This document shows, piece after piece, positions 4,870-43,118 of a stretch of 45,667 bases of DNA (position 1 is its first letter; each line of letters begins with the position of its first letter). The notes beneath the pieces are model-generated. The model did no database searches and was not told where the DNA came from. It saw only the letters and a list, made by a program, of their open reading frames with translations. A program made the position numbers and the translations under genes. This DNA comes from Akkermansiaceae bacterium. Its GTDB lineage: Bacteria; Verrucomicrobiota; Verrucomicrobiia; Verrucomicrobiales; Akkermansiaceae. Location: NCBI GenBank assembly GCA_903906515.1, contig CAIVKO010000053.1:1-45667 (forward strand), read 5' to 3'.

Positions 4870-4959
4870 TGATTTTCAAGCCGGACTTGAGGATCCAAGG
4901 TTATGCTTTCCGGTCCCCGAAACAAGCTTTCGCCAGCTGTCTCCCGCCCTTGTATCTCC

Positions 4960-21083: not shown

Positions 21084-21101
21084 TGTGAACATTCTGTCAC
21101 A
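21084..21101 (-). promoter_or_regulatory. TGTGAC-N6-GTCACA operator (site B, one mismatch)
   Basis: TGTGAA-CATTCT-GTCACA, 149 bp before the PEP-CTERM gene start. Reading toward that gene, the hexamer CATACT begins 31 bases after the site (21052-21047), comparable to the spacing at sites A, D and G. Confidence 0.5.
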
Positions 21102-21297: not shown

Positions 21298-21315
21298 TGT
21301 GACGAATTTGTCACA
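21298..21315 (+). promoter_or_regulatory. TGTGAC-N6-GTCACA operator (site C)
   Basis: Perfect arms TGTGAC-GAATTT-GTCACA, 126 bp before the Ig-repeat giant gene. No convincing -10 at the 31-33 base spacing; TTACTA at 21335-21340 is an alternative. Confidence 0.6.
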
Positions 21316-28475: not shown

Positions 28476-29807
28476 TCACCTCATCACCGGATCGGCCGCC
28501 TTTTCGAGGAAGCCATTTGCCAGCACCTGCCGGATTTTGAATGTCCCGAGTTTTCTGGCTTTCAAAAAACCATCCCAAGCCGCTTCGGCCAGCGTTCCGC
28601 GGTTCAACAAATCGTTCAGCCAATGGTTTGCGTAATCGGGATTTTCCTGTTTGATCCCGCCCCGGATTTCCCTGAGCCATTTCTTGTTGAACTTTTCCTG
28701 TGAACCGATCGTCGGAGACATGATGATGGGAATTCCCAAGGCGCAGTAAAATGAAAGCTCGCTCGGTTTGGTCCACAGAAGGTCGGTCTCGTGCAACGCA
28801 TGGTTGAACAGATCGAAAAATTCGTGGAGGGATTCGGAATGGATGATTTGGATTCCATCGCCATCAGGGGCGATGTCGGCTTTCACCGCATCAAAGTATT
28901 CCTTGACCTCGACGCGCGTGCCGGCCACGAGATTCAACCGGATCTCACCTGCCTGTATTTTGTCGCGCAGGCTGTTTGCAATTCTCCGTCCGATTTCCTT
29001 CTGGGCTCCGGCGCCACCCACCGCGTAAGTGATCGTCAGCATTTCCTCACCGGTCGGGGCGCCTGCATCCTGCCCGAGAAAAAACGCCACGTTTTTCCCG
29101 TGACGGGCGCGGAATCTGCCGCGGGGATCAAGGCGCGACAAGCGCCGGGCCAGATTTCTTTTGAGCACATCAAGGGTTTCATCACCCAGCAATTCCACGG
29201 GCAGGGGAAACCCCGTCAGGTGAATCCGTTCGTCTGGAACTCCATAGGCCCTCAGCCGCTGGGCAGCCTTTCCGCAAGGCGCGAAATACTCCACCCTGCT
29301 TTCCCACGGATTCTTCGACACCCACACGCGGTTGATGTCCGCGTCACAAATGATGCAATAGACCTTGTTGCATCCCTTCCGGTCGGCGGCGATCGCCGAG
29401 GCGTAGAACGAAGTGATGATTGGAATGTTTTTTGTCGATGTAATCTCTAACATTCCACTGCAAAGGCCTTTGTCCACCAGTGATTCGAGAAGATTCACCT
29501 GGAAAGTCGTGTTGGAGAGATTTCTCATCGGATAGAACGACGGAATTTTCAACATCGAATCGAGGATCGAAAACAGATACGGCCCGAAAACAGGCAGACC
29601 TTTGGTCCTGGAAAAGAACTCATAGGCACCCGTCATTCGTTGCCAGAGTTTCCGTTCGCTATCGGAAACAAATGCGGTTGCCCCCACGGTGATGATTTCC
29701 TCTTCCGCCATACCCCTCAGAGGATAGGCCGCGCGTTGATGGCCATAACCCATATCCGCAGCTACTATCCATGATCTGTCGGTTGATTCCGTCAAGGCCG
29801 CTGACAT
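28476..29807 (-). CDS. GT-B glycosyltransferase of MGDG-synthase/MurG type
   Basis: 443 residues from the ATG at 29807; a longer GTG start at 29846 is possible but would place the operator (site D) only 6 bp away. The N-terminus WIVAADMGYGHQRAAYPLR has the glycine/histidine loop of MurG and monogalactosyldiacylglycerol synthases, which take a membrane acceptor. A Rossmann-like C-terminal half follows (NVAFFLGQDAGAPTGEEML, LLWTKPSELSFYCALGIPII, the last resembling the nucleotide-sugar site of GT28 enzymes). Family-level knowledge: such enzymes make glycolipids or cell-wall precursors. Being divergent from pstS and next to a glycosyltransferase-PlcP fusion, synthesis of glycolipids that replace phospholipids is a plausible role (inference). 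Acceptor and sugar are unknown. Confidence 0.6.
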   Translation of the reverse strand: MSAALTESTDRSWIVAADMGYGHQRAAYPLRGMAEEEIITVGATAFVSDSERKLWQRMTGAYEFFSRTKGLPVFGPYLFSILDSMLKIPSFYPMRNLSNTTFQVNLLESLVDKGLCSGMLEITSTKNIPIITSFYASAIAADRKGCNKVYCIICDADINRVWVSKNPWESRVEYFAPCGKAAQRLRAYGVPDERIHLTGFPLPVELLGDETLDVLKRNLARRLSRLDPRGRFRARHGKNVAFFLGQDAGAPTGEEMLTITYAVGGAGAQKEIGRRIANSLRDKIQAGEIRLNLVAGTRVEVKEYFDAVKADIAPDGDGIQIIHSESLHEFFDLFNHALHETDLLWTKPSELSFYCALGIPIIMSPTIGSQEKFNKKWLREIRGGIKQENPDYANHWLNDLLNRGTLAEAAWDGFLKARKLGTFKIRQVLANGFLEKAADPVMR

Positions 29808-29851
29808 GCATACCCATGCGCTCCACCCGGACTCGTCGGCAACCACAGGGC

Positions 29852-29869
29852 CGTGACAAAATTGTCACA
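29852..29869. promoter_or_regulatory. TGTGAC-N6-GTCACA operator (site D), divergent
   Basis: CGTGAC-AAAATT-GTCACA, one mismatch, placed between the glycosyltransferase gene (start 45 bp away on the minus strand) and pstS (start 97 bp away on the plus strand). Toward pstS the hexamer AATAAT (29903-29908) begins 33 bases after the site. It could serve both directions. Confidence 0.6.
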
Positions 29870-29965: not shown

Positions 29966-30781
29966 ATGAAGTTTATCACTTCCATTCTGTTCGCTGCGAC
30001 CTGTATTGCGGGTGTTACACATGCCCAGAGCCTGAGCATCAAGGGCTCCGATACCCTTGGCGCCAAGCTGGTTCCTCAGCTTGCTGAAGCTTTCAGGGCC
30101 GCTGGCAGCACTCAGATTAAATTCGAAATCGCCGCCGAAGGATCGGCCACCGCATTTCCAGCGCTGGCCAACGGCACGGCACAACTCGGCATGTCATCGC
30201 GAGCGGCCAAGGAGGAAGAGCATACCTTCTGCCGCACCAAGGGCGTCGTGCTTGTGGAACACAAGATTTGTTATGACATGCTGTGCGTGATTTTGAACAA
30301 GAATTCACCCGTGTCGAAACTCACCAAGGATCAGGTGACCAAGATATTCACCGGTCAGGTCAAAGACTGGTCGGAAGTAGGGGGCACTCCGGGTACGATT
30401 TCCATTTACACCCGCAACACCTCGTCAGGCACCTACAAGGACTGGCAGAATCTCGCAATGAAGGGTCGTGATTACCCGGCCAATTCGCAGAAACTCGCGG
30501 GCACCGAGCAGATCACCCAGGAAGTCGCCAAGAACAAGAACGGCATCGGTTACGTCGGTCTCGCATACTCGAAGACGGCCGGAACCAAGGCCATACCCAT
30601 CGATGGCATCGAACCTGTCGGCAAGAACGCCGAGATATACCCCTATTCACGCCCTTGTTTCATCTATGTCCCGGAAAAAGCCACAGCCGAGGCAGGCGCC
30701 TTCCTGGTATTCATTGAGAAACCCGAGGGTCAGGAAATCGTGCGTAAAGTGGGATTCATACCTGTCAAGGACCTGAAGTAG
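29966..30781 (+). CDS. pstS: Phosphate ABC transporter substrate-binding protein PstS (copy 1)
   Basis: 271 residues with a Sec signal peptide (MKFITSILFAATCIAGVTHA). The mature chain opens SLSIKGSDTLGAKLVPQLAE and carries the landmarks of the PstS-like family: ANGTAQLGMSSRAAKEEE, FTGQVKDWSEVGG, YTRNTSSGTYKDW (the anion-contacting loop) and NKNGIGYVGLAY. No lipobox, so a soluble periplasmic protein. It is closely related to the copy at 40720-41520 but is separated from the transporter genes and stands under its own site D. Binds orthophosphate for PstCAB in the family; a second copy may give a different affinity or higher level of scavenging protein. Confidence 0.9.
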   Translation: MKFITSILFAATCIAGVTHAQSLSIKGSDTLGAKLVPQLAEAFRAAGSTQIKFEIAAEGSATAFPALANGTAQLGMSSRAAKEEEHTFCRTKGVVLVEHKICYDMLCVILNKNSPVSKLTKDQVTKIFTGQVKDWSEVGGTPGTISIYTRNTSSGTYKDWQNLAMKGRDYPANSQKLAGTEQITQEVAKNKNGIGYVGLAYSKTAGTKAIPIDGIEPVGKNAEIYPYSRPCFIYVPEKATAEAGAFLVFIEKPEGQEIVRKVGFIPVKDLK

Positions 30782-30830: not shown

Positions 30831-30848
30831 TGTGACGAAACCGTCACA
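30831..30848 (+). promoter_or_regulatory. TGTGAC-N6-GTCACA operator (site E)
   Basis: Perfect arms TGTGAC-GAAACC-GTCACA, extending to ATTGTGAC/GTCACAAT (30829-30850), 59 bp before the glycosyltransferase-PlcP fusion gene and 49 bp after the pstS stop. Confidence 0.65.
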
Positions 30849-30907: not shown

Positions 30908-32881
30908 ATGAGAATCGAAATCGTTACCGATACGTTCACGCCTGACATCAATGGAGTAGCGATGACTTTGGGGCGTCTGACCCAAGGACTGAAGCAACGT
31001 GGCCACCGGGTGCATGTGTTACATACCGGAACCACGGCCTGCCCTGGTGAGACCTGCGTCGCGTCGTTGCCACTGCCGGGCTACAAGGAGGTGCGGGTGG
31101 GCCTGCCCAAACCGTTCGAACTCCGGGCCCGCTGGATCCGGAGACGTCCGGATGCGATTTATGTCGCCACCGAAAGCCCGCTCGGCAAATCCGCGCTGAA
31201 GGCCGCCAACGCGTTGCGCATCCCGGTGGCAACAGGCTTCCACACCAACTTCCACCAATACATGCAACAATACGGAATGGGCGGCTTGCAACCGGTGGCG
31301 ATGGCGTATCTGAGGAATTTCCATCAGCGCGCCAATTGCACGCTGACTCCTTCCCGCGATGTGAGGGAGCAACTCACCGCCCAAGGACTTGAAAACGTCC
31401 ACTTGCTCGGGCGCGGAGTAGATACGGAATCGTTCATGCCTGAAAAACGCTGCGAGATGCTGCGCTCAGAATGGGGCATACGTGCCGGAACCCCGGTGGC
31501 CATCATGGTCGGCCGGGTGGCGGCGGAAAAGAATTTCGACCTGGCAATACGAACCTTCGGCAGGATGCGACAGGCATTTCCAGACGTCGCCTGCGTGGTG
31601 GTCGGCGATGGCCCACTACGCGAGAAACTGGCTGAAGCCCACCCGTGGGTTCATTTTGCCGGCGTGAAAACCGGTGAGGATCTCGCGAAGCACTATGCAT
31701 CAGCGGATGTCCTGATTTTCCCAAGTGAGACCGAGACATTCGGCAATGTTCTGCTAGAAGGCATGGCGAGCGGTCTCGCCACCGTGAGTTTCGACTACGC
31801 CGCCGCCGCTCTGCACGTGCGGGCCGGTGTGAACGGGCTAAAGGCCACCATGGGCAATGCCGACGAATTCATCGAACACGCACTCCACGCCCTCTCGCTA
31901 CCGGTGAACGATGACTTGCGCCGGGAAGCGCGGGAAACCGCGGAGTCGCTCGGTTGGGACACGGTGGTCGCTGAATTCGAGCACAGGCTGGCGGAAATCG
32001 CAGGCATCACCACACAGGCCACTGAAAAGAGGCCGAAACCTGGCAAGCGTCCGAGATTTTCGTGCCGCACGGTTTTTCTATCAGATGTTCACCTGGGCAC
32101 GCTGGACAGCAAGGCGGACGAGTTGGTGGAGTTTCTCAAGCACATCCAGTGCGCCAAACTGGTGCTCAATGGCGACATCATCGACGGCTGGGCGCTCAAA
32201 CGTGGCAGCCGCTGGACGGCGCGCCATAGCAGACTGATCCGGAAGATCATCAAAATGACCGAGCGCGACCACACCGAGGTGGTCTATCTGCGGGGCAACC
32301 ATGATGAAATACTCGAACGGTTTCTTCCGATGACCTTCGGAAAAATACGTCTAACCAAGGAGCACATTCACATGACTCCGGAGGGCAAACGTTATCTTGT
32401 CGTGCATGGCGACGGGTTTGACAGCGTCTCGACGAACCACCGGTGGCTCGCCTCGCTCGGTGCGGTGGGTTATGATTTCCTGCTTCGCGTGAACCGGATT
32501 TACAATCAATACCGGGCATGGCGCGGCAAGGAGTATTTCTCGCTCAGCAAACGTGTGAAGGCAAAGGTCAAGTCCGCTGTGAGCTTTGTGGACCGGTATG
32601 AGGACCTCCTTCAGGAACTGGCACGCCATCGGAAATGCGAAGGCATCATCTGCGGCCACATCCACACGCCCGAAGACAAGCAGGTCGGCGATGTGCATTA
32701 TCTGAACTCAGGTGACTGGGTGGAAAGCCTCACCGCGATTATCGAACACCACGACGGTCGCATGGAATTGGTCCGCCATGCCGAGGTGATGGCGAGCCTC
32801 CGTAAAGGTAAGATTCCTGGAACCGAATCACCAGCGGGACATGAGGAGCATTCTTCCGCCGCGTCAACCTGCATGATCTAA
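30908..32881 (+). CDS. Fusion of GT4 glycosyltransferase and PlcP-like metallophosphoesterase
   Basis: 657 residues. Residues 1 to about 365 are a GT4 glycosyltransferase: EIVTDTFTPDINGVAMTLGR at the N-terminus, GFHTNFHQYMQQYG, GRVAAEKNFDLAI, and FPSETETFGNVLLEGMASG with the nucleotide-sugar-binding Glu pair. After a basic linker (EKRPKPGKRPRF), residues about 385-640 are a calcineurin-like phosphoesterase with all metal motifs: SDVHLG, NGDIIDG, RGNHDE, HGDGFD and GHIHTP. This half resembles PlcP, the COG2908-type phospholipase C of Sinorhizobium and marine bacteria, whose gene commonly lies next to a diacylglycerol glycosyltransferase. PlcP frees diacylglycerol from phospholipid and the transferase glycosylates it, sparing phosphate. 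Here both would be one polypeptide, allowing direct hand-over. Site E upstream and pstS before it support a phosphate-limitation role. Specific lipids are inferred. Confidence 0.8.
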   Translation: MRIEIVTDTFTPDINGVAMTLGRLTQGLKQRGHRVHVLHTGTTACPGETCVASLPLPGYKEVRVGLPKPFELRARWIRRRPDAIYVATESPLGKSALKAANALRIPVATGFHTNFHQYMQQYGMGGLQPVAMAYLRNFHQRANCTLTPSRDVREQLTAQGLENVHLLGRGVDTESFMPEKRCEMLRSEWGIRAGTPVAIMVGRVAAEKNFDLAIRTFGRMRQAFPDVACVVVGDGPLREKLAEAHPWVHFAGVKTGEDLAKHYASADVLIFPSETETFGNVLLEGMASGLATVSFDYAAAALHVRAGVNGLKATMGNADEFIEHALHALSLPVNDDLRREARETAESLGWDTVVAEFEHRLAEIAGITTQATEKRPKPGKRPRFSCRTVFLSDVHLGTLDSKADELVEFLKHIQCAKLVLNGDIIDGWALKRGSRWTARHSRLIRKIIKMTERDHTEVVYLRGNHDEILERFLPMTFGKIRLTKEHIHMTPEGKRYLVVHGDGFDSVSTNHRWLASLGAVGYDFLLRVNRIYNQYRAWRGKEYFSLSKRVKAKVKSAVSFVDRYEDLLQELARHRKCEGIICGHIHTPEDKQVGDVHYLNSGDWVESLTAIIEHHDGRMELVRHAEVMASLRKGKIPGTESPAGHEEHSSAASTCMI

Positions 32882-33157: not shown

Positions 33158-34870
33158 TTATTTGAAAAGTGTCTCCACACCCATCGCGGACTTGCTGAGG
33201 AGCTTGGGCATTGCAGACGGATCGCGCTGGCGTAGCGCCCTGAATGCGAGACCTGCCCACGGCAGGATGACCATCCGGTCCAACCATCGGTAACCCCGCT
33301 TCCGCCGGAGCAGCACACTTGCCACGATGGCGAGGACACGTCGTCTCACAGGGAAGGGCTCGAAGGAAATCCGGATCCGGTAACGCTGACGAGTTTCCTT
33401 GGGCCAGCGTTGTTTGTAAGCTTCCTTTACAGTGCGGATCCGGGCCGCTAGAGATTCGTCAAAAGGCAGGAAATAATATCTCCGCGCCAACAGGATTAGT
33501 TTAAAGAAATCATGCATGTGCTCGATGTCTTCGACCGGGAGTCCCGCGTCCCGTGCCACCGCGATCATACGAGGGAAGAGTTCCGCGGCTGCCTCCGCGC
33601 CGACCAATGCCCGTTCGGGACTGCCAACGAAATATCGCATCACTTTGCGCACGCCATGGTTGATGAAGAGCGAATCCCAGTAAACATGCAGCAGCGGTGG
33701 TATGCGCACCCGGCGGAAAAACAGTTTCTGCTTTGCGAAGTCGTGAATGTAGAGGATCTCCCGAATCACCGTGTCGGCATGATCAAGAAGCTCCAGAGCT
33801 GCTGGAACCCGTTCACCACCTAACAATTCTTCAACTGCGGAGTCCGCTGTCTTTCCATCTTTGAAAACGGCGATAGCGGCAGCGGTATTGAGCTGGATCC
33901 AGATATCGCGGCCATCCTTTTCCAGATAGGCGCGGCGCTGGAAGCGATGCCAACCGCCAGTCTGGCACCATACCGAAATTCCGGCGACGTTTTCCACCTG
34001 TGAGAGTTCCAGCGCATAGCGCTCGCAATCCCAGCCAATAAACGACGGGTATTCGCCAGCCCCTTCGTATTCACGACGTGCCTGGAGTTCCAGGAGCTTG
34101 CGTTGTTTCACACGGAAAAACGAGCGGTTGAGCGGGAGATAGCGGAAGAAATCGCTCTCGCCGTGTTTCATTGAAACGATTAGATTGGGTGAGTCCAGCC
34201 CTTCCAAGGTTTTTTCGAGCGTGCCTCGATGCCAGATCAGATCACCGATGCGATGGGCTCCCACCGTCCAGGTCCGGAAAATCAAATCGCGTCCGCGTTT
34301 TTCAAACTCGGGCAGCAGGGAGCGCAACAACCGATTTGTCCCGGCGGCATCGCGCAGGTGCAGCCGCGTCCGGATCGGATCGTTAACATCGTTCCCGTCA
34401 CTCTCACCTATGCGTAGGATCAATCCGGCGAGCTGGGGAAAATCGTCGAGGATGCCCCGCACAAGGTTCTGATAGTAATTGTCCAATTCAACCGGATCAT
34501 CGCCAAACGCGTCTGAAAGAGCAGGTGTCATCGGCAGCACATCACTGGTGAGGTAGATCCGGAGTCCGAACTCGCCGTGCAGCATGTCAAAAATCCGTGT
34601 GAACTTCGCCCGCAGCAAGGCGATCCTGTCCGCCACCTCCGGCTCGTGCAGCGGATGCGGAGCCAAATGTGCCAGATCGTCCAAACTCACCGCGTTGTAT
34701 CCTTGCGCGGCGATCCTCCCTGCAAACTCCCGCAGCTCATCTTCAATCGCCGACCAATCGTCCGGCCCAATATCCTCAAGGTGCATGAACGGGATTTTAG
34801 ACCAGTTGATGCGCTTACGCTTGTATCCCCGGAAAAACGGCCCGATCGCATCGATGAGAAAAAGTTCCAT
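33158..34870 (-). CDS. Large protein of unknown function, possibly TIM-barrel glycoside-hydrolase-like
   Basis: 570 residues from the ATG at 34870 (a TTG two codons earlier is less likely). No signal peptide, so cytoplasmic or peripheral. Segments such as AAQGYNAVSLDDLAHLAPH, LRIYLTSDVLPMTP, PQLAGLILRIGESDGND and SFIGWDCERYALEL are spaced like the strands and active-site loops of a TIM barrel and faintly recall GH67-type alpha-glucuronidases (the Glu in RIGESDG and the acidic residues in WDCE would be candidates). The C-terminus is helical and basic (RRRVLAIVASVLLRRKRGYR, WLDRMVILPWAG). I cannot name the family with confidence. It is preceded by an operator of the TGTGAC type (site F), so it probably belongs with the phosphate/lipid genes around it. 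Confidence 0.55.
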   Translation of the reverse strand: MELFLIDAIGPFFRGYKRKRINWSKIPFMHLEDIGPDDWSAIEDELREFAGRIAAQGYNAVSLDDLAHLAPHPLHEPEVADRIALLRAKFTRIFDMLHGEFGLRIYLTSDVLPMTPALSDAFGDDPVELDNYYQNLVRGILDDFPQLAGLILRIGESDGNDVNDPIRTRLHLRDAAGTNRLLRSLLPEFEKRGRDLIFRTWTVGAHRIGDLIWHRGTLEKTLEGLDSPNLIVSMKHGESDFFRYLPLNRSFFRVKQRKLLELQARREYEGAGEYPSFIGWDCERYALELSQVENVAGISVWCQTGGWHRFQRRAYLEKDGRDIWIQLNTAAAIAVFKDGKTADSAVEELLGGERVPAALELLDHADTVIREILYIHDFAKQKLFFRRVRIPPLLHVYWDSLFINHGVRKVMRYFVGSPERALVGAEAAAELFPRMIAVARDAGLPVEDIEHMHDFFKLILLARRYYFLPFDESLAARIRTVKEAYKQRWPKETRQRYRIRISFEPFPVRRRVLAIVASVLLRRKRGYRWLDRMVILPWAGLAFRALRQRDPSAMPKLLSKSAMGVETLFK

Positions 34871-34925
34871 GAGCAACGAAAGCAGAAGAATGGCGACGTG
34901 AGGACCCGGGAAGCGAGGCTTCTAT

Positions 34926-34943
34926 TCTGACAGAATCGTCACA
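34926..34943 (-). promoter_or_regulatory. TGTGAC-N6-GTCACA operator (site F, one mismatch)
   Basis: TCTGAC-AGAATC-GTCACA, 56 bp before the start of the 34870 gene on the minus strand. The -10 candidate at the usual spacing is weak. Confidence 0.5.
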
Positions 34944-35101: not shown

Positions 35102-35815
35102 TCAACCTTCCTCGCTTTTTTCTACCACACGATCCTCTTCACCGAGGTTTCTCCGGTGTTCGTGGCGGATGTCGCGGGCCTCGTTCATGAAGACCGCGTC
35201 CTCGCCGATGTTGACGGCGAGATCGCCGATGCGCTCGATCGAACGGGAAACAAAGATAAGGTGCAACAGGTTTTCCGCGCCGGAACCGGCTGTTTCGAGG
35301 CGGGAGCTGAGCAAGGCGATGACTTCCTTGTGCGCCTTGTCGAGTTCAGCATCCCCGTTTTTCAGACGCTCGCCGAGATCCGTGTTGCCATCGGTGTAGG
35401 ACAACAACGCATCCCTCAACAAATGTTCCGCCTTGGTATATAGCGGTTCGATCATCGCGGTTTCCAGAGGGTCGCCGGACTTACAGAGTTTTTTTGCCCG
35501 CTTGGCGATGTTGACGGCATGGTCCGAAATTCGCTCCAGATTATGGGCCATTTTCATCGAGGTGATGACCAACCGCAGATCGGATGCCACCGGATGAAAC
35601 CTGAGCAGGATCTCCATGCCGAGATGGTCGATTTTCATTTCCAGTTCATCGACTTCCGTATCCTCACCGATGACGGTGCGAGAGAGATCGATATTGCGCG
35701 TGATCAGAGCCTGAACCGCGCGTTCCAGATTCTGGCGGGTGAGGCTGGCCATTTGCAGCACATGGCTTTTCAAATCGCCGATGGCGTTGTCGAATTCGTG
35801 GAAGATGTGGGGCAT
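35102..35815 (-). CDS. phoU: Phosphate signalling protein PhoU
   Basis: 237 residues, normal length. Two PhoU three-helix repeats are visible; each has the metal-binding E/DxxxD pattern, in MKMAHNLERISDHAVNIAKR (about residues 88-107) and SRSIERIGDLAVNIGEDAVF (about 190-209). PhoU connects the Pst transporter to a sensor kinase and prevents excess phosphate uptake. It is the last gene of the porin-pst operon, 164 bp behind pstB2; this gap contains an inverted-repeat element that could lower its expression relative to the transporter genes. Confidence 0.92.
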   Translation of the reverse strand: MPHIFHEFDNAIGDLKSHVLQMASLTRQNLERAVQALITRNIDLSRTVIGEDTEVDELEMKIDHLGMEILLRFHPVASDLRLVITSMKMAHNLERISDHAVNIAKRAKKLCKSGDPLETAMIEPLYTKAEHLLRDALLSYTDGNTDLGERLKNGDAELDKAHKEVIALLSSRLETAGSGAENLLHLIFVSRSIERIGDLAVNIGEDAVFMNEARDIRHEHRRNLGEEDRVVEKSEEG

Positions 35816-35842
35816 AGTCGTAAATGGTGGAGGGTGAAGATT

Positions 35843-35979
35843 TTAGACAGAAGACTTTGAGACAGAAGACAGAAGATCAGAGCAAGCATCAGAGCGAAAT
35901 GCTTTAGAAATACGAATGTGTGGTGAAATTATCATCTTTTCTTCTGTCTTCTGTCTGGGAGCGAAGCGGTCTTCTGTCT
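35843..35979. repeat. Inverted-repeat element directly behind pstB2
   Basis: Left arm AGACAGAAGAC...AGACAGAAGACAGAAGA (35845-35876); right arm 35937-35979, whose minus-strand reading is the same pattern, AGACAGAAGAC, a 12-bp spacer, then AGACAGAAGACAGAAGA. On the minus strand the element begins with the first base after the pstB2 TAA. Interior about 60 bp. Same architecture as the elements at 4011 and 28323 but a different core sequence. Confidence 0.6.
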
Positions 35980-36780
35980 TTATCCAAACCTCCCGCTGAT
36001 GTAGTCTTCTGTTTTCTTGAGTTTGGGATTGGAAAATATCCGGCGGGTTTCGGAAAATTCAATCAATTCCCCCATGAAAAAGAATGCGGTTTCGTCGGAG
36101 ACACGGGATGCCTGCTGCATGTTGTGGGTCACCACCACGAAGGTATAGTCTTTTTTGAGGTTGTAGATGAGTTCCTCCACCTTGGCGGTGGCAATGGGAT
36201 CGAGTGCGCTGCACGGCTCGTCCATGAGCACGACGAGCGGCTTCACGGCGATGGTGCGGGCGATGCAAAGCCGTTGTTGCTGGCCACCGGAAAGCCCGAG
36301 TGCGGATTCCTGGAGGCGGTCTTTCACTTCATCCCAGAGAGCGGAATCCTTGAGGCTTTCTTCGACGACTTGATCGAGCACGACCTTGTTTTTTTCACCC
36401 CTCATGCGCAGACCAAACGCGACGTTTTCGTAGATGCTGCGCGGGAAGGGATTGGATTTCTGGAAAACCATACCGACATCGCGGCGCAGTTTCACGACAT
36501 CCACTGAGCGGTCATAGATATCGACACCCTCGACCCGGATGCTGCCCTGCGTGACGCGGGTGCCTGGGATTTCGTCGTTCATTCGATTGATGCAGCGCAA
36601 CAGGGTGGATTTCCCACAACCGGACGGACCGATGAACGCGGTGACCTTGTTCTGTTTCAATTCCAGATTGATATGCTTGAGCGCCTGCGAGCTGCCATAA
36701 TTGAAGCAAAGGTCGCGGATCCCGACCATGACGTCGGGAAGGTTTTCGTGAGACGGAAAAATTTCCTGGTGTTCAGACAT
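35980..36780 (-). CDS. pstB: Phosphate ABC transporter ATP-binding protein PstB (second copy)
   Basis: 266 residues. Walker [10 protein letters not shown] (about residues 51-59), Q-loop [13 protein letters not shown] signature [11 protein letters not shown] (about 166-176), Walker [13 protein letters not shown] (about 187-198) and H-loop VVVTHN are all present, with the CINRMND segment typical of PstB. It has an N-terminal extension of about 18 residues compared with the other copy. It follows pstB1 by 17 bp. Both copies look functional, so the transporter may be able to use a heterodimeric ATPase. Confidence 0.92.
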
Positions 36781-36797
36781 GAAATGATGGTTGGAAA

Positions 36798-37571
36798 TCA
36801 GCCGAAAGCACCGGAAATGTAGGCTTCGGTTTGTTTATCAGAGGGATTCCTGAAGATTTGCAGCGTATCGCCATACTCGATCAATTTCCCGAGATACATG
36901 AAAGCCGTGCGATCCGAACAACGCGATGCCTGGGCCATGTTATGGGTGACGATGACGATGGTGAATTTTTTCTTCAACTCCAGCATGAGCTCCTCGATCT
37001 TGAGCGTGGCGAGCGGGTCGAGGGCGGCGCAGGGTTCGTCCATCAGGAGGATGTCCGGTTCGTTGGCGATCGCGCGGGCGATGCAGAGCCGTTGTTGCTG
37101 GCCACCGGAGAGTCCGAGAGCGCTGGAGTGGAGGCGGTCTTTCACTTCATCCCAGAGTGCGGCACCGGTTAGAGCAGCTTCGGCAGCGGCATCGAGTTCC
37201 GAGCGCTTGGTCATCCCGGCGATTTTCAGACCGAAAACCACGTTGTCATAAATCGACTTCGCGAACGGATTGTATTTCTGGAAAACCATCCCGACGCGGC
37301 GGCGGAGCTCCTGAATATCGATATCTTTTCGATAGATATCAATCTCATGGATACGGACGGTGCCGGAAGTGATCCGCGCTCCGGCGATGCGGTCGTTGAT
37401 GCGGTTAATACAGCGCAGCAGGGTGGACTTTCCGCAACCGGAAGGTCCGATGAAAGCCGTAATCTTGTGCGAGGGAATTTCGAGCGAGACATCATGCAAC
37501 GCCTGTTTTCCGCTGTATGCGAAACAGACATTGTCGATATGAATCGCGGTGTCTTGGACAGGATTTACCAT
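36798..37571 (-). CDS. pstB: Phosphate ABC transporter ATP-binding protein PstB (first copy)
   Basis: 257 residues from the ATG at 37571; the open frame runs 69 codons further up inside pstA, but that part has no PstB similarity. Walker [10 protein letters not shown] (about 41-49), [10 protein letters not shown], signature [11 protein letters not shown], Walker [13 protein letters not shown] and VIVTHN are intact. The start overlaps the pstA stop by 7 bp (ATGGTAA), giving translational coupling. Hydrolyses ATP to drive phosphate import through PstC/PstA in the inner membrane. Confidence 0.93.
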
Positions 37572-38692
37572 TTGAGTTTCTTGCGGAGTTTGGCGCGCAG
37601 GATCATCGAACCGAAGGACAGCGAGGCGACGAGGACGAGGAAAACGAAAACCGATCCGTATTGGGCGCGTTCGGTGTATTCCGAGTTCGGTATGCGTGCG
37701 GCGAGCGTGTAAATGTGATAAGGCAGCGCCTGGACTTGTGACGACAGGACACCGAAAGGATTGCTCAGTCCCTGCCATGGCAGGTCGTCCTTGGCTGCGA
37801 CCGCTGCGGTGAACATGATCGGGGCGGTTTCACCGGCCACGCGGGCGATGGCGAGCAACGAGGATGTTAGAATTCCCGGCAGCGAATAGGGCAGCACACA
37901 TTTGCGGATCGTCTGCCAGCGGGTGCCACCCATGGCGAGTGACGCGTCGCGAAAACCTTGGGGAACGGCACGCAGCGATTCCTCGGAAGCCGTGATGATC
38001 ACCGGCAAGATCATGCAGGCGAGCGTAGCGCATCCGGCGATAAGTGAGGAATTCCAGCCCTGAAAACTAAGGACATAGTTTCCAACCATCAGCGGAATGG
38101 TGAGCATCGAACGATCTGATGGAGTGTTTGTAATGATCGGCACGGCGAGCACGAACACCGAAAATCCGAACAACCCGAAGACAATCGATGGAATGCCCGC
38201 CAGGTTGAGAATGGCGAGACGGACGGCGTGGATAAACGGGCTTTGTTTAGCATACTCGGCCAGATAAATCGCGGCGCTGACACCGAAGAACAACGCGAGT
38301 ATCATCGAGCCGATGGTAAGTAGCGCGGTGCCGACGATGGGCCCGGCGATGCCTCCACCGGAGTATGAGAAGGTTTGCTCGTTGTAGAGGGTCGCCCCCG
38401 CATGGGCGTTGACGTAGTCGCTATATTTGGAGGCTGGAAGCTGGTGACGCGTGCCTTGGGCGTCATCGAAGACATGCAGCGTTTCATTTTTCGCCGTAAG
38501 GAACTCGATGTCCACGAAGGGAAACTTCGAGGTGAAGATGGCGGGAGCACCATCGATGAGGATCTTGCCGAAAATCATCAGGGCGATGATCACGATGAGA
38601 TAGGTGATACCACGGAGAAACGAACGCACCAGCGTCTCCCGGAGATATCCCTTGGGACGACCTTTGCGAATGATGGATTCCGGATTGAACAT
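37565..38692 (-). CDS. pstA: Phosphate ABC transporter permease PstA
   Basis: 375 residues, longer than the usual about 290. An N-terminal membrane segment ([18 protein letters not shown]) is followed by a periplasmic insert of about 75 residues (residues about 50-125) before the permease core, whose helices include [20 protein letters not shown] and [18 protein letters not shown]. The EAA-type loop is [20 protein letters not shown], and [20 protein letters not shown] is the typical PstA motif. Partner of PstC in the inner membrane. It starts 10 bp after pstC and overlaps pstB1. Confidence 0.92.
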
Positions 38693-38702
38693 GGTCGGTG
38701 GA

Positions 38703-40610
38703 TTATTTTCGGACGCGGTTCACGAAATGGTGGGCGGAAGCATTGATGCCGAGCACAACCACAAACAACACGATGCCGACGATGAAGAGCGCACGGTAGT
38801 GGACGCTGCCGAGCGGAACCTCACCGAGTTCCTGGGCGATGATGCCGGTGAGTGTGTGTGCGGGCTGGAAGAACGAACCAATGCCGGCGGTGAAATCCGG
38901 AATCTTGATGCGGTTGCCGGCGACGAGCAGGACCACCATGGTTTCACCGATCACGCGGCCCAGACCTAACAAGACAGCGGCGAGGATACCTGAGAACGCG
39001 GCGGGGATCATCACGCGGAAGGTGGTTTGCACGCGGGAGGCACCGAGCGCTTCCGAGGCCTCGGCGTAGGCGGATGGCACGTTGTTGAGAGCATCCTCGG
39101 CGAGTGAGAAGATGGTGGGAATACTCATCAGCGCAAGCAGGCAGCCAGCGGTGAAAATGTTAAGTCGTTCTTCGATGGGAAAGCCGGGCACCCATTGAAA
39201 CGAGTCCATCACCGAGATTTCCCTCAAGATCGTGCCGAAAACCAGTATTCCGAGGAAACCGAGCACCACCGAGGGAATCGCTTGAATGAATTCAATGACC
39301 GGTTTGACGATGTTTTGTTCACGGTTACCAGCGAATTGATTGACATAGATGGCGGAACCAATCCCCACCGGAATGGCGATGACCAATGCGACAACCGCGA
39401 TCATGAGTGACCCGATCGCAAGCGGGAGGATGCCGTAGAAATCCTGCCATTCCCCGCCGGTCACCCAGTCTTTTCCGGTGAAAAACGAAGTGATCGCATC
39501 GGAAAGTGGGACCGGATCGGTGTGGTTCCAGATCTTGATTTTCTCCGGGGCCGCCTTGAGATCCGCGATGAAGACCGGCCACGACTTGTGGGCGGCGCGG
39601 AGAATCCTGTTAGCCTCGGGTTGACTGAGCGACTGAGGAATAGCCGGTAGAATCTCGCCAACGGATTTTTCGAGTTGCTGATGGAGCCGGATGCAATCCT
39701 CGCGGCGATTCATCAACAGTTGCATCGGCCCTTCGACGTCGGGCTTTTCGGCTATCGCGGCATTGGCATCGACCAGAAGTCTCTCGCGCTCGGCAGGATT
39801 CTTGGCGTTGTTGGCAGCAGCGAGGAGTGTCTCGCGGTCTTTGGCGATGATATCCGCGCTTTGGAGTTTTTCCTTGGTCGCGGTCACGGATTCCGTCATT
39901 TCCGTGATGACGGTGCCGAGATCGGATCCGGCGGCACCGAATGAATCGATAGTGGCACGGAAATCCTTGAGAGGTTCCGAGAATTTCGCCTGAGCTGCGG
40001 TATAATTTTCAGTTAGAGAAACAACCAGCGGTGGATCCTCGGTGGTTTCTGGAGCGCGGGCGCGGAGGCTGCTAACGAGTTGGTTGCGCTCATCGGTGGT
40101 GAGATGTGGAGTGGCAGGGAGGAGGCCTAGAGCCTTTTGTTTTTGTTTTTCGTAGTTTTCCCTGAGGACGGCGAGCATGCCCGAATTGCCGCCAGCGTCA
40201 CTTTGAGGGTTGTTAAGAATCAAATCGCGGGTCGGTCCGGTTTGATCGGAGTATGCGTTGAACAGGGCGCTTGCCTCTTGAAAACGGCGCATTTCACGCA
40301 TGGCCTTGCCGTTGATTTCGGCAAAATAGGCACGATTGAGAAGACTGGTGAGTTGTTCGTGAGAGGTGAGGTTTTTTCTGGAAATATCGACGAATTCGAG
40401 GCCGGCAATACGGTAGGTTTCCAACTCGCGGCGATATCCCGGAAAGAATCCAAGCCCCTCCTTGAGCAGGAATACAATGATTAGGACAAGTATAACAATC
40501 GTGAGTCCGGCGTTGGAGGCGAAAAAATACTTGATGAGCCGCTCATACGAAAATCCGCGCCGTTGGAAACGGTGGGCGGTTTTGGATGATGCGGATTCCT
40601 TGTTGGCCAT
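38703..40610 (-). CDS. pstC: Phosphate ABC transporter permease PstC with a large periplasmic insert
   Basis: 635 residues, about twice the usual PstC length. After a cytoplasmic basic start, the first membrane segment is at about residues 34-52 (LTIVILVLIIVFLLKEGLGF). About 340 predominantly helical, charged residues follow on the periplasmic side (for example MREMRRFQEASALFNAYSDQ and NPAERERLLVDANAAIAEKP), and the normal permease core begins at about residue 400 (LAIGSLMIAVVALVIAIPVG). The core has EASEALGASRVQTTFRVMIP (EAA loop) and GLGRVIGETMVVLLVAGN, the standard PstC motif. The insert could dock PstS or the porin; no function is known to me. It lies between pstS (109-bp gap with a hairpin) and pstA (10 bp). 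Confidence 0.92.
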   Translation of the reverse strand: MANKESASSKTAHRFQRRGFSYERLIKYFFASNAGLTIVILVLIIVFLLKEGLGFFPGYRRELETYRIAGLEFVDISRKNLTSHEQLTSLLNRAYFAEINGKAMREMRRFQEASALFNAYSDQTGPTRDLILNNPQSDAGGNSGMLAVLRENYEKQKQKALGLLPATPHLTTDERNQLVSSLRARAPETTEDPPLVVSLTENYTAAQAKFSEPLKDFRATIDSFGAAGSDLGTVITEMTESVTATKEKLQSADIIAKDRETLLAAANNAKNPAERERLLVDANAAIAEKPDVEGPMQLLMNRREDCIRLHQQLEKSVGEILPAIPQSLSQPEANRILRAAHKSWPVFIADLKAAPEKIKIWNHTDPVPLSDAITSFFTGKDWVTGGEWQDFYGILPLAIGSLMIAVVALVIAIPVGIGSAIYVNQFAGNREQNIVKPVIEFIQAIPSVVLGFLGILVFGTILREISVMDSFQWVPGFPIEERLNIFTAGCLLALMSIPTIFSLAEDALNNVPSAYAEASEALGASRVQTTFRVMIPAAFSGILAAVLLGLGRVIGETMVVLLVAGNRIKIPDFTAGIGSFFQPAHTLTGIIAQELGEVPLGSVHYRALFIVGIVLFVVVLGINASAHHFVNRVRK

Positions 40611-40656
40611 GGGCTACGGGTGCAGTGGACAGGGTTCGAGAAATGTTGGCAAGAAA

Positions 40657-40689
40657 ATGAGCATCGCTGACACGGCCAACGATGCTCAT
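40657..40689 (-). terminator. Hairpin between pstS and pstC (partial terminator)
   Basis: On the minus strand ATGAGCATCG and CGATGCTCAT form a perfect 10-bp stem with a 13-base loop, followed by TTTTCTT. It lies 30 bp after the pstS stop and 47 bp before pstC. Such a structure would let most transcripts end after pstS, giving excess binding protein over permease. Confidence 0.7.
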
Positions 40690-40719
40690 TGAAACAACAA
40701 ACGTGCAGTAAAAGATGAA

Positions 40720-41520
40720 TCAGTTCGCAATGAAACCGACCTTTTGAACGATCGATTGACCCGCGGAGGATTTGACAAAGTCAAGGAACGCCTGTGCCTC
40801 AGCTGTCGGTTTGTCCGGCGCGTAGAGGTAGCACTGGCGGGCATATGCATAGGTCTTGGCGTTCTGAGCAACGGGCTCAACGCCACCGATTGGGAGCGCT
40901 TTGGTTCCGGCGGTCTTCGAATAAGCAAGGCCGACGTATCCGATGCCATTCTTGTTTTTGGCGACTTCCTGGGCGATTTGTTCGTTACCCGCCAACTTTT
41001 GCGAGCTGGACGCATAGTCGCGACCACCCATGGCGAGCTTCTGCCAGTCCTTATAGGTGCCGGATGAAGTGTTGCGGGTGTAGATCGAGATCTTGCCGGG
41101 AGCACCACCGATTTCCGACCAGTCCTTGATCTGACCGGTGAAAATCTTGGCGACTTGGTCCTTCGTCAGCGCGGACAGCGGGCTATTCTTGTTGACGATC
41201 ACGCAGATCATGTCGTGGCAGATCGGGTGTTCCTTAACATAGACACCCTTGGTTTTGCAGAACGTGCGTTCATCATCCTTGATCTTGCGGGAGGACATGC
41301 CGATTTGGGCGGTGCCGTTGGCAAGTGCCGGAAAGGCGGTGGTGGATCCTTCGGCGGCTATTTCGAATTTCACACCCGTGTTGCCGGCGGCCTTGAAGGC
41401 CTCCGCAAGCTGGGGAACGAGTTTCGCTCCGAGGGTGTCACTGCCCTTGAGGCTGAGGGTTTGCGCGCCGGACAGGGTGATCAGGGCGGCGGATGCGATC
41501 AGTGTGCTGATGATTTTCAT
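40720..41520 (-). CDS. pstS: Phosphate ABC transporter substrate-binding protein PstS (copy 2)
   Basis: 266 residues with a Sec signal peptide (MKIISTLIASAALITLSGAQ). The mature protein begins TLSLKGSDTLGAKLVPQLAE and contains ANGTAQIGMSSRKIKDDE, FTGQIKDWSEIGG, YTRNTSSGTYKDW and NKNGIGYVGLAY, nearly the same motifs as the copy at 29966. It captures phosphate in the periplasm. It starts 42 bp behind the porin gene, without an operator of its own, so it is probably transcribed from the promoter before the porin. A hairpin behind it probably sets its ratio to the permease genes. Confidence 0.93.
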   Translation of the reverse strand: MKIISTLIASAALITLSGAQTLSLKGSDTLGAKLVPQLAEAFKAAGNTGVKFEIAAEGSTTAFPALANGTAQIGMSSRKIKDDERTFCKTKGVYVKEHPICHDMICVIVNKNSPLSALTKDQVAKIFTGQIKDWSEIGGAPGKISIYTRNTSSGTYKDWQKLAMGGRDYASSSQKLAGNEQIAQEVAKNKNGIGYVGLAYSKTAGTKALPIGGVEPVAQNAKTYAYARQCYLYAPDKPTAEAQAFLDFVKSSAGQSIVQKVGFIAN

Positions 41521-41562
41521 TTTGATAGATTGTGATTTGTAGATTGTAGATGATTATTAAGA

Positions 41563-42942
41563 TCAGAATGCGAAGCGGAGGCCGCTGTAGAACGTGTAGC
41601 CATCATAGGAGGCCGTTTGGTGTTTTGCCGGGTTGGCAATGCCACCGTCCATCATCGAATACTCGATACCATTCATGATTTTGAGTTTATGGCCGTAGAT
41701 GTAATAGTTCAGACCCAGGTAGAATGAAGTATAACTGTCTCCATTCGGGATCGCGCCGGGTGCGTATTTTTCATATCTTCCAGGCAGCGCCAGATTGCTG
41801 GTGGCAGGTGTGGCTCCAATCTTCGGATCCACATCTCCGCTGGTTGCCCATTGCACGCGCCCCACAAGTTGCAGGCCATCCGCAATGAAGTAGGATGGGA
41901 TGATGCTGATACCGAATACGTCGGTTTGGTTGATGTCTTTGTTGACACCCGCTTGTTCGGCTTTGCCCTGATAGCCGAATCCATACATGATGTCGGTGGT
42001 TAAACCGAAACGTCCTTGAGTGATCTCGTTGGAGAGACAAAGGGAGTCCGTGAATGCGGGTGTAGTCGGAGCCGCGTAGTTTGCATTCTTTTCCGTTTCC
42101 ATGGATTTGTAACCCGGCTCGGTATTGTGCATGTAGCGGAACGAGGCGACGGCGGTATCAAAACCCGACTGGGCTGAATAATCATATCCAACCTTGCCAA
42201 TCATGAGAACACCGCCATCGAAACTGGAGAATTCGCGGACCTGATCATTTCCGTAGATGCCGGCTTCATAAAGCCAATGCTCCTGAATGCCTTTGCCGTT
42301 CACCCACATACCAGTGAGATTTCCGGGGTGAAGCATGTTGGTGACCAAACTCCGCTCGAATGTTAGGATTTCCTTGGATGAGATTTCCTGTTCGCGCGTG
42401 AGTTTAATTTCCTGTTTACCCACCGAAATATTGAGCGCATCCGAAGGAGCGTATGTCAGGTAAAGGTCGTAAATATCCTTGTAAAGCGTGTGTCCTCCCT
42501 GACCGTCAATGGCGTCCGTATCAACGTCGATTTGACCTTCGAACTTCCAGTTTTGGAACCACTTGGATTTGAAACCGAAATACGCACGACGTGCTTCAAG
42601 ATGGTCGCCCCACACCGCTTCATCCTTACCGCCGGCATTCTTGTAATCTTCAATATCGAAGTGACCATTATCGGAATGTCCATCCGCATACTGCACTTGC
42701 AGGCGGCCTTGCAGCGAGAACTCCTGAAGGATCTGATTGTTTTCGTCCTTATAAAGAGTGAAGCCGGACCAAGCGCGGTCCCATGCGGACTCTCCGGTGA
42801 ATTTTCCGAGCAGGAGCCCGGTGGCGGTGCTGGGGGCGGTGGCTTCCAGAGCTCCGGATTCCGTGGTGGATGTGGTGCCGCCGTGAGCGGGGACAAGTCC
42901 GAGCAAGCCGGTGGCAAGCAGGGAGCGGTGGATGGTTTTCAT
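41563..42942 (-). CDS. Phosphate-selective porin of the OprP/OprO type
   Basis: 459 residues from the ATG at 42942 (signal MKTIHRSLLATGLLGLVPAH); an ATG three codons earlier (42951) is nearly as good, while the far upstream one at 43011 lies in the leader. The sequence fits Porin_O_P: FSLQGRLQVQYADG, RRAYFGFKSKWFQNWKFEGQ, ISVGKQEIKLTREQEISSKE (the conserved strand after the first hairpins), and the C-terminal FYSGLRFAF ending in Phe. These trimeric outer-membrane channels pass phosphate or polyphosphate. It is the first gene of the pst operon, with two TGTGAC operators (G and H) upstream, so outer-membrane entry and inner-membrane transport are made together. Confidence 0.88.
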   Translation of the reverse strand: MKTIHRSLLATGLLGLVPAHGGTTSTTESGALEATAPSTATGLLLGKFTGESAWDRAWSGFTLYKDENNQILQEFSLQGRLQVQYADGHSDNGHFDIEDYKNAGGKDEAVWGDHLEARRAYFGFKSKWFQNWKFEGQIDVDTDAIDGQGGHTLYKDIYDLYLTYAPSDALNISVGKQEIKLTREQEISSKEILTFERSLVTNMLHPGNLTGMWVNGKGIQEHWLYEAGIYGNDQVREFSSFDGGVLMIGKVGYDYSAQSGFDTAVASFRYMHNTEPGYKSMETEKNANYAAPTTPAFTDSLCLSNEITQGRFGLTTDIMYGFGYQGKAEQAGVNKDINQTDVFGISIIPSYFIADGLQLVGRVQWATSGDVDPKIGATPATSNLALPGRYEKYAPGAIPNGDSYTSFYLGLNYYIYGHKLKIMNGIEYSMMDGGIANPAKHQTASYDGYTFYSGLRFAF

Positions 42943-43028
42943 CGTTTGCATGTGATGTGTGTTGTAGGTAATGCGCTGAGCGCGTTGAACGTTTAGCGGA
43001 TGGAAACGCAAATCAGGAAGAGAGACTT

Positions 43029-43046
43029 TGTGACAGAATTGTCACA
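43029..43046 (-). promoter_or_regulatory. TGTGAC-N6-GTCACA operator (site G)
   Basis: Perfect arms TGTGAC-AGAATT-GTCACA, 87 bp before the porin start. Reading toward the porin, GCTAAA (42997-42992) begins 31 bases after the site, a spacing like that at sites A, B and D. Confidence 0.65.
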
Positions 43047-43090: not shown

Positions 43091-43118
43091 CGCTATGTGA
43101 CAGGGCTGTCACATAGCG
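43091..43118 (-). promoter_or_regulatory. TGTGAC-N6-GTCACA operator (site H), extended arms
   Basis: CGCTATGTGAC-AGGGCT-GTCACATAGCG: perfect 11-base arms, the longest of the eight copies. Its centre is 67 bp from that of site G (about 6.4 helical turns). It lies 55 bp behind the hprK stop. Confidence 0.65.

Follow-up and report, generated by a model that had tools for sequence, protein, structure and literature searches.

The locus described here raises the question whether a single polypeptide can combine the two steps of PlcP-Agt lipid remodelling, in which a glycerophospholipid is converted into diacylglycerol (DAG) and the latter into a glycolipid. In the window, that is, the whole stretch of 45,667 nucleotides that was analysed (Akkermansiaceae bacterium, contig CAIVKO010000053.1), an open reading frame (ORF) at 30908..32881 (+ strand) codes for a protein of 657 amino acid residues, which was assigned from the ORF, Pfam profiles and trees of both halves as an Agt2-type GT4 glycosyltransferase (GT) joined to a PlcP phosphoesterase. 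The protein is likely to be a single Pho-regulated enzyme of the cytoplasmic membrane surface, which would perform both steps of the pathway.

A GT4 domain and a phosphoesterase with intact motifs in one open frame had been proposed in a preliminary description of this DNA, with limits at about residue 365 and at about 385–640, and the ORF, the Pfam search and the counts of catalytic residues bore this out. The frame runs from an ATG at 30908 to a stop at 32881 without a break (657 codons), and the profiles Glyco_transf_4 (residues 14–174, 2.8e-29), Glyco_trans_1_4 (196–329, 3.4e-27) and Metallophos (387–588, 1.1e-12) were matched. The GT4 half, delimited by Pfam, motif counts and fold, comprises residues 1–365 (30908..32002, +) with GRVAAEKN (202–209), H112 and ETFGNVLLE (276–284), and the PlcP half, delimited by Pfam, tree and motifs, comprises residues 386–640 (32063..32827, +) with SDVH, GDII, GNHD, HGD and GHIH. 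Between them lies a Lys/Arg-rich linker of residues 366–385 (32003..32062, +), as judged from charge count and structure model.

Related loci were taken from the best 80 of 182 relatives (79 loci). As the same genomes recur among the loci, the trees and counts are based on one locus set (L084–L121, L124 and L001), from which F_L097, having one in-frame stop, and, in the GT tree, GT rows of fewer than 300 residues were left out. Counted with its flanks, the linker stretch of the 40 fused rows was 27–35 residues long with a mean net charge of +5.1; in the window the net charge was +5 over the counted stretch 361–391, with a model confidence below 50 at residues 370–378, and in the linkers of the genus Akkermansia the basic character looks lower. 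Within its own genome (4.48 Mb, 265 contigs) the fused gene is the sole full-length match to itself, the remaining two matches to the protein being partial GT4 sequences at 25–27%. The same single frame was found in relatives of the genus (66–84% identity) and across the family (38–71%). Comparison of the window with its nearest relative, L084, by the NG86 method gave nonsynonymous (dN) and synonymous (dS) rates of 0.097 and 0.935 for the GT half (dN/dS ~0.10) and of 0.060 and 0.789 for the PlcP half (dN/dS ~0.08), and both halves are under purifying selection in the window's own lineage. Because the same single frame occurs in other genomes and dN/dS is low, the frame is due neither to chance nor to an assembly error.

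The phosphoesterase half contains the calcineurin-like metal site D-x-H / GD / GNHD / H / GHxH, and the metal residues D393, H395, D423, N464, H465, H500, H584 and H586 were identical in 40/40 fused rows, the window included. As a fold search with the whole model returned the GT half alone, this half was folded separately (pLDDT 83.4, pTM 0.76), and the nearest solved fold was that of LpxH (5wly, Z 18.4, 176 aligned residues, root-mean-square deviation (rmsd) 3.0); a single-sequence search for solved structures related to the PlcP half gave no significant match. The fold, together with the common annotation of family records as 'UDP-2,3-diacylglucosamine diphosphatase', would suit an LpxH-type UDP-diacylglucosamine hydrolase and a gene for lipid A synthesis, an alternative which we regard as scarcely credible in view of the following evidence. 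LpxH as the nearest solved fold is expected within the superfamily. An 84-row unrooted tree separated seven LpxH-side rows (E. coli LpxH, five further LpxH and one Bacteroides LpxH-like protein) from all fused, unfused verrucomicrobial and PlcP rows by a branch with support 100/99, and the phosphoesterase half fell on the side of the PlcPs of S. meliloti and P. aeruginosa. An Arg in GNRD is a hallmark of LpxH, and was present in 6/6 LpxH rows, whereas the phosphoesterase half has GNHD, as do both PlcPs. Its identity was 38.4% to S. meliloti PlcP and 43.0% to P. aeruginosa PlcP, which share 44.7% with each other, compared with 17.6% to E. coli LpxH. On the LpxH model the fused protein scored 37.2 bits against a curated cut-off of 134, much as the genuine PlcPs do (55.1 and 38.1), and the gene lies in the context of a Pho operator and pst genes. 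In the window's genome LpxI was found (149.8 bits), and no LpxH above the cut-off (best 39.7 of 134 bits). The grouping with LpxH, which the preliminary description had named as an outcome that would speak against PlcP, can therefore be set aside by tree, motif, model score and the LpxI of the genome.

The S. meliloti comparator, L064, whose gene adjoins an acyl-homoserine-lactone synthase gene and a LuxR gene, is presumably SMc00171 of the sinI-sinR neighbourhood. Its record (CP090106.1, S. meliloti, 3.72 Mb) is labelled pSymB; the label may be wrong, the region presumably being the chromosomal sinI-sinR-plcP neighbourhood. The gene of the P. aeruginosa comparator, L066, is followed by a glycosyltransferase gene, in agreement with PA3219-PA3218 in PMC8528852. 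Three alphaproteobacterial rows also fall on the PlcP side and, since two of them adjoin genes annotated as ceramide glucosyltransferase, this side of the tree is not purely Agt-linked. A PlcP-like protein of Parabacteroides (L068) sits among the verrucomicrobial rows (100/100); its gene overlaps a following glycosyltransferase gene, the product of which is without detectable kinship to the fused GT half.

In the GT half, residues G16, R203, K208, T277, G279 and E284 were found in 39/39 fused rows, F278 in 38/39, H112 in 37/39, and E276 and R169 in 36/39 each; all of them are present in the window. The fold resembled that of PimA (2gej) with Z 34.6 over 338 aligned residues (rmsd 2.8). In a 77-row tree the GT half grouped with Agt2 of P. 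aeruginosa (98/99) and fell outside the clade of Agt1 (100/99), and the identity was 44.7% to Agt2 vs. 31.7% to Agt1. The gene of the Agt2 comparator (L065) adjoins plcR and a phospholipase C gene, and from the gene order of strain PAO1 we take it to be PA0842. The catalytic acid at position 276 is Glu, as in Agt2, compared with Asp in GTcp and Agt1. For the SAR11 DAG glycosyltransferase, PMC8231724 gives a set of residues whose mutation inactivates the enzyme; these are present in the GT half, with GRVAxEKN exact and Glu in place of Asp at 276. In P. aeruginosa, according to PMC8528852, PA0842 (Agt2) yields glucuronosyl-DAG and PA3218 (Agt1) glucosyl-DAG, PA3219 is PlcP, and Agt2 takes also UDP-glucose to some extent, whereas Agt1 takes solely UDP-glucose.

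The best NCBIfam model of the GT half was GlcN_PG_synth (N-acetylglucosaminyl-phosphatidylglycerol synthase) with 138 of 480 bits, a match that would fit another acceptor, either phosphatidylglycerol or a lipid of the wall or lipopolysaccharide, and no DAG relay at all. Agt2, a DAG-using enzyme and the closest relative of this half among those characterised, scored alike on the same model (135 bits), however, and the partner of the GT in both fusion and operon is PlcP, the product of which is DAG; another acceptor is thus considered improbable. Free-standing Agt2-like GTs were also encountered, in L178, L179, L180, L182 and L187, and form a clade beside the fused GTs; that of a sixth genome of the genus, L181, groups elsewhere.

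A perfect operator TGTGACN6GTCACA, TGTGACGAAACCGTCACA, was located by pattern scan at 30831..30848, 59 bp 5′ of the start codon of the fused gene and downstream of a pstS gene (29966–30781), so that the pstS and operator mentioned in the preliminary description are indeed in place. With at most one mismatch, the pattern occurred at 12 places in the 4.48-Mb genome, eight of them in the 45.7-kb window, and exactly at seven places, five of them in the window; the reversed-pattern control gave none in the genome. The exact boxes in the window precede the fused gene, the porin-pst operon (two, at 43029–43046 and 43096–43113) and two giant surface-protein genes, whereas the boxes with one mismatch are situated between the second pstS and the divergent 28476–29846 ORF (29852..29869), before the convergent gene 33158–34876 (34926..34943) and once more before one of the giant genes, which codes for a protein of 2064 residues and thus has one perfect and one imperfect box (21084–21101 and 21298–21315). 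Outside the window, an exact box lies about 50 bp 5′ of a gene for an OmpR-type PhoB-like regulator (best model TIGR02154, 213 of 296 bits) with a PhoR/PnpS-like kinase gene (241 of 334 bits and 255 of 400) behind it; another exact box lies beside a ShlB-type secretion gene. One-mismatch boxes outside the window are found on contig C121 and, probably by chance, on contig C77 at the start of the dnaA ORF. Two other genomes of the genus contained four exact boxes in all, one each upstream of phoB and two in pstS-like/porin-like intergenic positions.

Upstream of the fused genes at least 9 of the 12 fixed bases were present in 34/36 regions and at least 10 in 29/36, the window included, at a nearly constant position of −30 to −110; the 36 regions are the 39 less near-identical ones. 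The controls gave a mean of 0.81 regions (0.08 for at least 10 bases) in 300 shuffles and 1/36 in the stretch further upstream. A search with the canonical Pho box, a direct repeat CTGTCATNNNNCTGTCAT, did not return the fused-gene site among the 20 best matches listed (at least 10 of 14). The halves of TGTGACN6GTCACA can alternatively be taken as an 11-bp repeat resembling a PhoB site. By its site and its neighbours, the fused gene belongs to the Pho regulon, and the box offers a means of tracing this regulon in these bacteria by sequence.

The window's genome is not alone in having the fusion. Among 37 genomes of the same genus, the window's own included, it was found in 29, in one of which (G022) a stop interrupts the GT half; three retain the PlcP half but no GT half, one has a separate GT only and four have none. 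A draw of 387 genomes from the phylum comprised 39 of the same family according to a kinship-ordered listing. Of these, 29 showed a match at 1e-60, and in 28 the match spans both halves with no stop inside it; one genome with a match, G248, was left outside the 28, and the ten genomes without a match all belong to one genus. Single frames were found in all of the 28 that were read (eleven plus two). The fusion is, accordingly, the usual form in the sampled family, and the survey of its spread suggested in the preliminary description arrives at 28/39 family genomes. Isolates with a name are also among the carriers, namely Luteolibacter pohnpeiensis KCTC 22041, L. marinus NBU1238 and Haloferula luteola YC6886. 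The family is called Akkermansiaceae here in accordance with record titles and GTDB usage, NCBI placing Luteolibacter in Verrucomicrobiaceae, and it very probably includes, among the carriers of the fused form, the gut bacterium Akkermansia muciniphila. Further fusions suggested by long open-frame values in G059, G185 and G276 were not counted, as stop-to-stop frames gave separate genes, nor was G118, where the upstream reading was unrelated.

All 39 fused rows of the GT tree formed one clade (99/92, 98% of bootstrap trees). In the PlcP tree, 36 fused rows and all six rows lacking a GT half formed one clade (92/93), the picture being less clear for L113, L114, L116 and L118, which stood at the clade base without a resolved placement. 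In other families of the order the GT and plcP genes are separate and adjacent, in the same order as in the fusion. Thirteen such unfused pairs were read, 12 verrucomicrobial and one from Rhodocyclaceae, and in 6/13 the stop of the GT gene overlaps the ATG of plcP in an ATGA. The arrangement pstB-GT-plcP-phoU was found in L027 and L033, and GT-plcP-phoU divergent from phoB-phoR, with boxes in between, in L028, L029 and L031; no pst, phoU or phoBR genes were found in the stretch read around the other seven of the 12 verrucomicrobial pairs. At least 10 of the 12 box bases occurred upstream of 8/12 of these pairs. The 36 proteobacterial pairs, from the loci of the best 80 relatives, are all separate, with plcP first in 34/36. 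In L026, a genome from a different family, there is a second fusion, the linker of which is longer and which is followed by phoU; this fusion nests among unfused pairs in both trees. The fused chain thus derives from a GT-plcP operon, and arose at least once more elsewhere.

The later history of the two halves differs. At six loci (L023, L024, L025, L122, L123 and L125) the PlcP half is intact behind a remnant of GT or linker, the remnants being short and, except in L122, judged by eye, and these loci are scattered over five positions within the fused clade. In L108 and L120 the catalytic His is lost with a nearby deletion, and in L108, L110 and L120 Asp replaces Glu276. Two further fusions of the genus Akkermansia, L197 and L198, have an intact PlcP half and a GT half without His112, Lys208 and Glu276, which is predicted to be a pseudo-enzyme domain kept in frame. 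The loci with GT decay are mostly from draft metagenome assemblies. An intact GT half with a broken PlcP half was not seen among the loci read, no systematic search having been made. Because the GT half has been repeatedly lost or inactivated while PlcP was kept, an obligatory channelling of DAG is argued against, and in some lineages the fused GT would be dispensable.

These data bear directly on a reading in which the halves are independent: PlcP would salvage phosphate and answer the stronger need, the GT would use any DAG pool, and the fusion would fix stoichiometry and location with no hand-off. It overlaps otherwise with the proposal of a single Pho-regulated enzyme, and we hold the chances for and against it to be evenly balanced. 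Retention of the PlcP metal residues where the GT half is deleted or broken, as well as the absence of the reverse decay in the loci read, are in agreement with it. So are a dN/dS lower in the PlcP half than in the GT half in five of the six pairs giving a value and, according to PMC8528852, the formation of some glucuronic acid-diacylglycerol without PlcP in P. aeruginosa. On the other hand, neither half is damaged in the window's own lineage, where both are under constraint, one of the six pairs goes the other way, and the independent second fusion in L026 suggests some advantage of one chain. The boldest interpretation, a single-chain converter in which DAG moves at the membrane from the PlcP site to the GT site of the same chain, that was fixed in the ancestor of the verrucomicrobial family (A. 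muciniphila included), that arose in Verrucomicrobiota on two or more occasions from a packed Pho operon and that was then repeatedly cut back to PlcP alone, is put forward only tentatively and is rather doubtful.

The proposal of a single Pho-regulated enzyme for both steps can be formulated as follows, the two activities, substrates, donor, induction and membrane docking being inferred from sequence. At low phosphate, PhoB-PhoR would act on the TGTGACN6GTCACA box to switch on the fused gene. As a phosphoesterase with two metal ions, probably manganese, the C-terminal PlcP half would split a glycerophospholipid into DAG and the phosphorylated head group, and the N-terminal Agt2-type GT4 half would transfer the sugar of a UDP-sugar (glucose, or glucuronate where made) to DAG to give a phosphorus-free glycolipid. 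Both would act at the inner membrane face, where the short basic linker could keep the two sites near the bilayer. Fusion of the GT-plcP operon would ensure that both activities are present in the same amount and at the same place; a DAG hand-off within one chain would be possible and is not required. The fusion itself is strong evidence for PlcP and an Agt2-type GT acting in one pathway.

Apart from the GlcN_PG_synth match and the loss or breakage of the GT half in several relatives, a number of observations weigh against this proposal. The AlphaFold2 model of the whole fused protein had a pTM of 0.57, because of which its domain orientation was left unused. Both tree runs were flagged for long branches meeting, including LpxH rows and some outgroups, and the GT tree run for an odd letter make-up of rows including Agt1 and Agt2. 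The PhoB-like regulator and the PhoR-like kinase both scored under the curated PhoB/PhoR cut-offs. No box was present at the usual place in the nearest relative, L084, and in L119 (7 and 8 of 12 bases), the best site at six loci of the genus Akkermansia had 8–9 of 12 bases, and no pst genes were found within the 11.5–13 kb read near these six loci. With regard to the donor, no NDP-sugar dehydrogenase over the cut-off was found in the window's 265-contig genome, so UDP-glucuronate may be missing in this organism; such a dehydrogenase was found in 34/41 genomes of the genus. Glucuronate as the donor, as Agt2 kinship would have it, was for this reason not concluded.

The genes around the fusion complete the picture of the locus. 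Directly before it, the second pstS (29966..30781, +) codes for a phosphate-binding protein (PBP_like_2, 1.3e-35; TIGR02136, 198 bits with a cut-off of 206.6). Divergent from this gene, a DUF6938 protein (28476..29846, −; PF22053, 7.3e-12) is a possible, weakly supported GT28-like lipid glycosyltransferase (PRK13609, 0.0015, 17.5 of 500 bits), with a weak match to the processive DAG beta-glucosyltransferase 9wde of the PDB (E 0.0046), and may be a further enzyme of glycolipid synthesis in the regulon; no plasmid homologue of it was found. Convergent to the fused gene, a conserved protein of 572 residues without a Pfam or NCBIfam match is encoded at 33158..34876 (−), and its gene adjoins the fusion in several relatives and also one unfused pair (L037).

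A seven-gene Pho operon, porin-pstS-pstC-pstA-pstB-pstB-phoU, follows at 35102..43011 (−), as assigned by profiles. It comprises Porin_O_P (41563–43011), pstS (40720–41520, identified from the similarity of its translation to that of the second pstS, not by profile search), pstC (38703–40610), pstA (37565–38692), the first pstB (36798–37778), the second pstB (35980–36780) and phoU (35102–35815), all on the − strand; the coordinates are ORF limits, and some true starts are internal. Both members of the tandem pstB pair (35980–37778, −) exceed the TIGR00972 cut-off. At the other side of the window, 4903–16779 (+) codes for a 3958-residue protein resembling two-partner secretion (TPS) proteins and filamentous haemagglutinin, with a perfect box 33 bp before its start. 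On contig C207 a ShlB-type transporter gene (L188:4024–5628, −) has a perfect box of its own, and the two may be partners of one such secretion system within the phosphate regulon. The 2064-residue protein (21441–27635, +), with 14 Ig_7 stretches and two boxes upstream, may be a second giant surface protein under phosphate control.

No report of a fusion of PlcP with an Agt-type GT was found in the open-access literature searched, subscription papers and supplements lying outside it. In the passages of PlcP/Agt papers that were consulted, plcP and agt are neighbouring genes, 'fused' does not occur and 'fusion' occurs solely in the name of an instrument; the main text of a gene-fusion compilation (PMC4921024) mentions no phospholipase or phosphoesterase. 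PlcP is noted in one marine verrucomicrobium (PMC4796936) and reported absent from verrucomicrobial methanotrophs. The present locus would extend phosphate-dependent membrane remodelling, known from Proteobacteria and one marine verrucomicrobium, to a verrucomicrobial family with a human gut symbiont and cultured strains, and the series from unfused operon through fusion to loss of one half makes a kinetic gain vs. equal dosage testable.

With the PlcP-Agt pathway of P. aeruginosa (PA3219 with PA3218/PA0842), SAR11 (PlcP-GTcp) and M. trichosporium (plcP-agt), the fusion has in common both enzyme families, Pho control by context and the predicted lipid swap. In that pathway the genes are separate, with plcP upstream of agt where they are neighbours, whereas the fusion is one chain with the GT first and of the Agt2, not the Agt1, type. 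P. aeruginosa Agt2 (PA0842), a glucuronosyl-DAG synthase and of all characterised enzymes the closest to the GT half (44.7% identity), also with Glu at the catalytic acid, is free-standing beside plcR and is not joined to PlcP. LpxH shares fold and metal site with the PlcP half, but occupies a separate side of the tree, has Arg for His in GN(H/R)D and acts on another substrate. S. meliloti PlcP, with 38–40% identity to fused PlcP halves and on the same side of the tree, is likewise free-standing, with no annotated glycosyltransferase in the 8.8 kb read around its gene.

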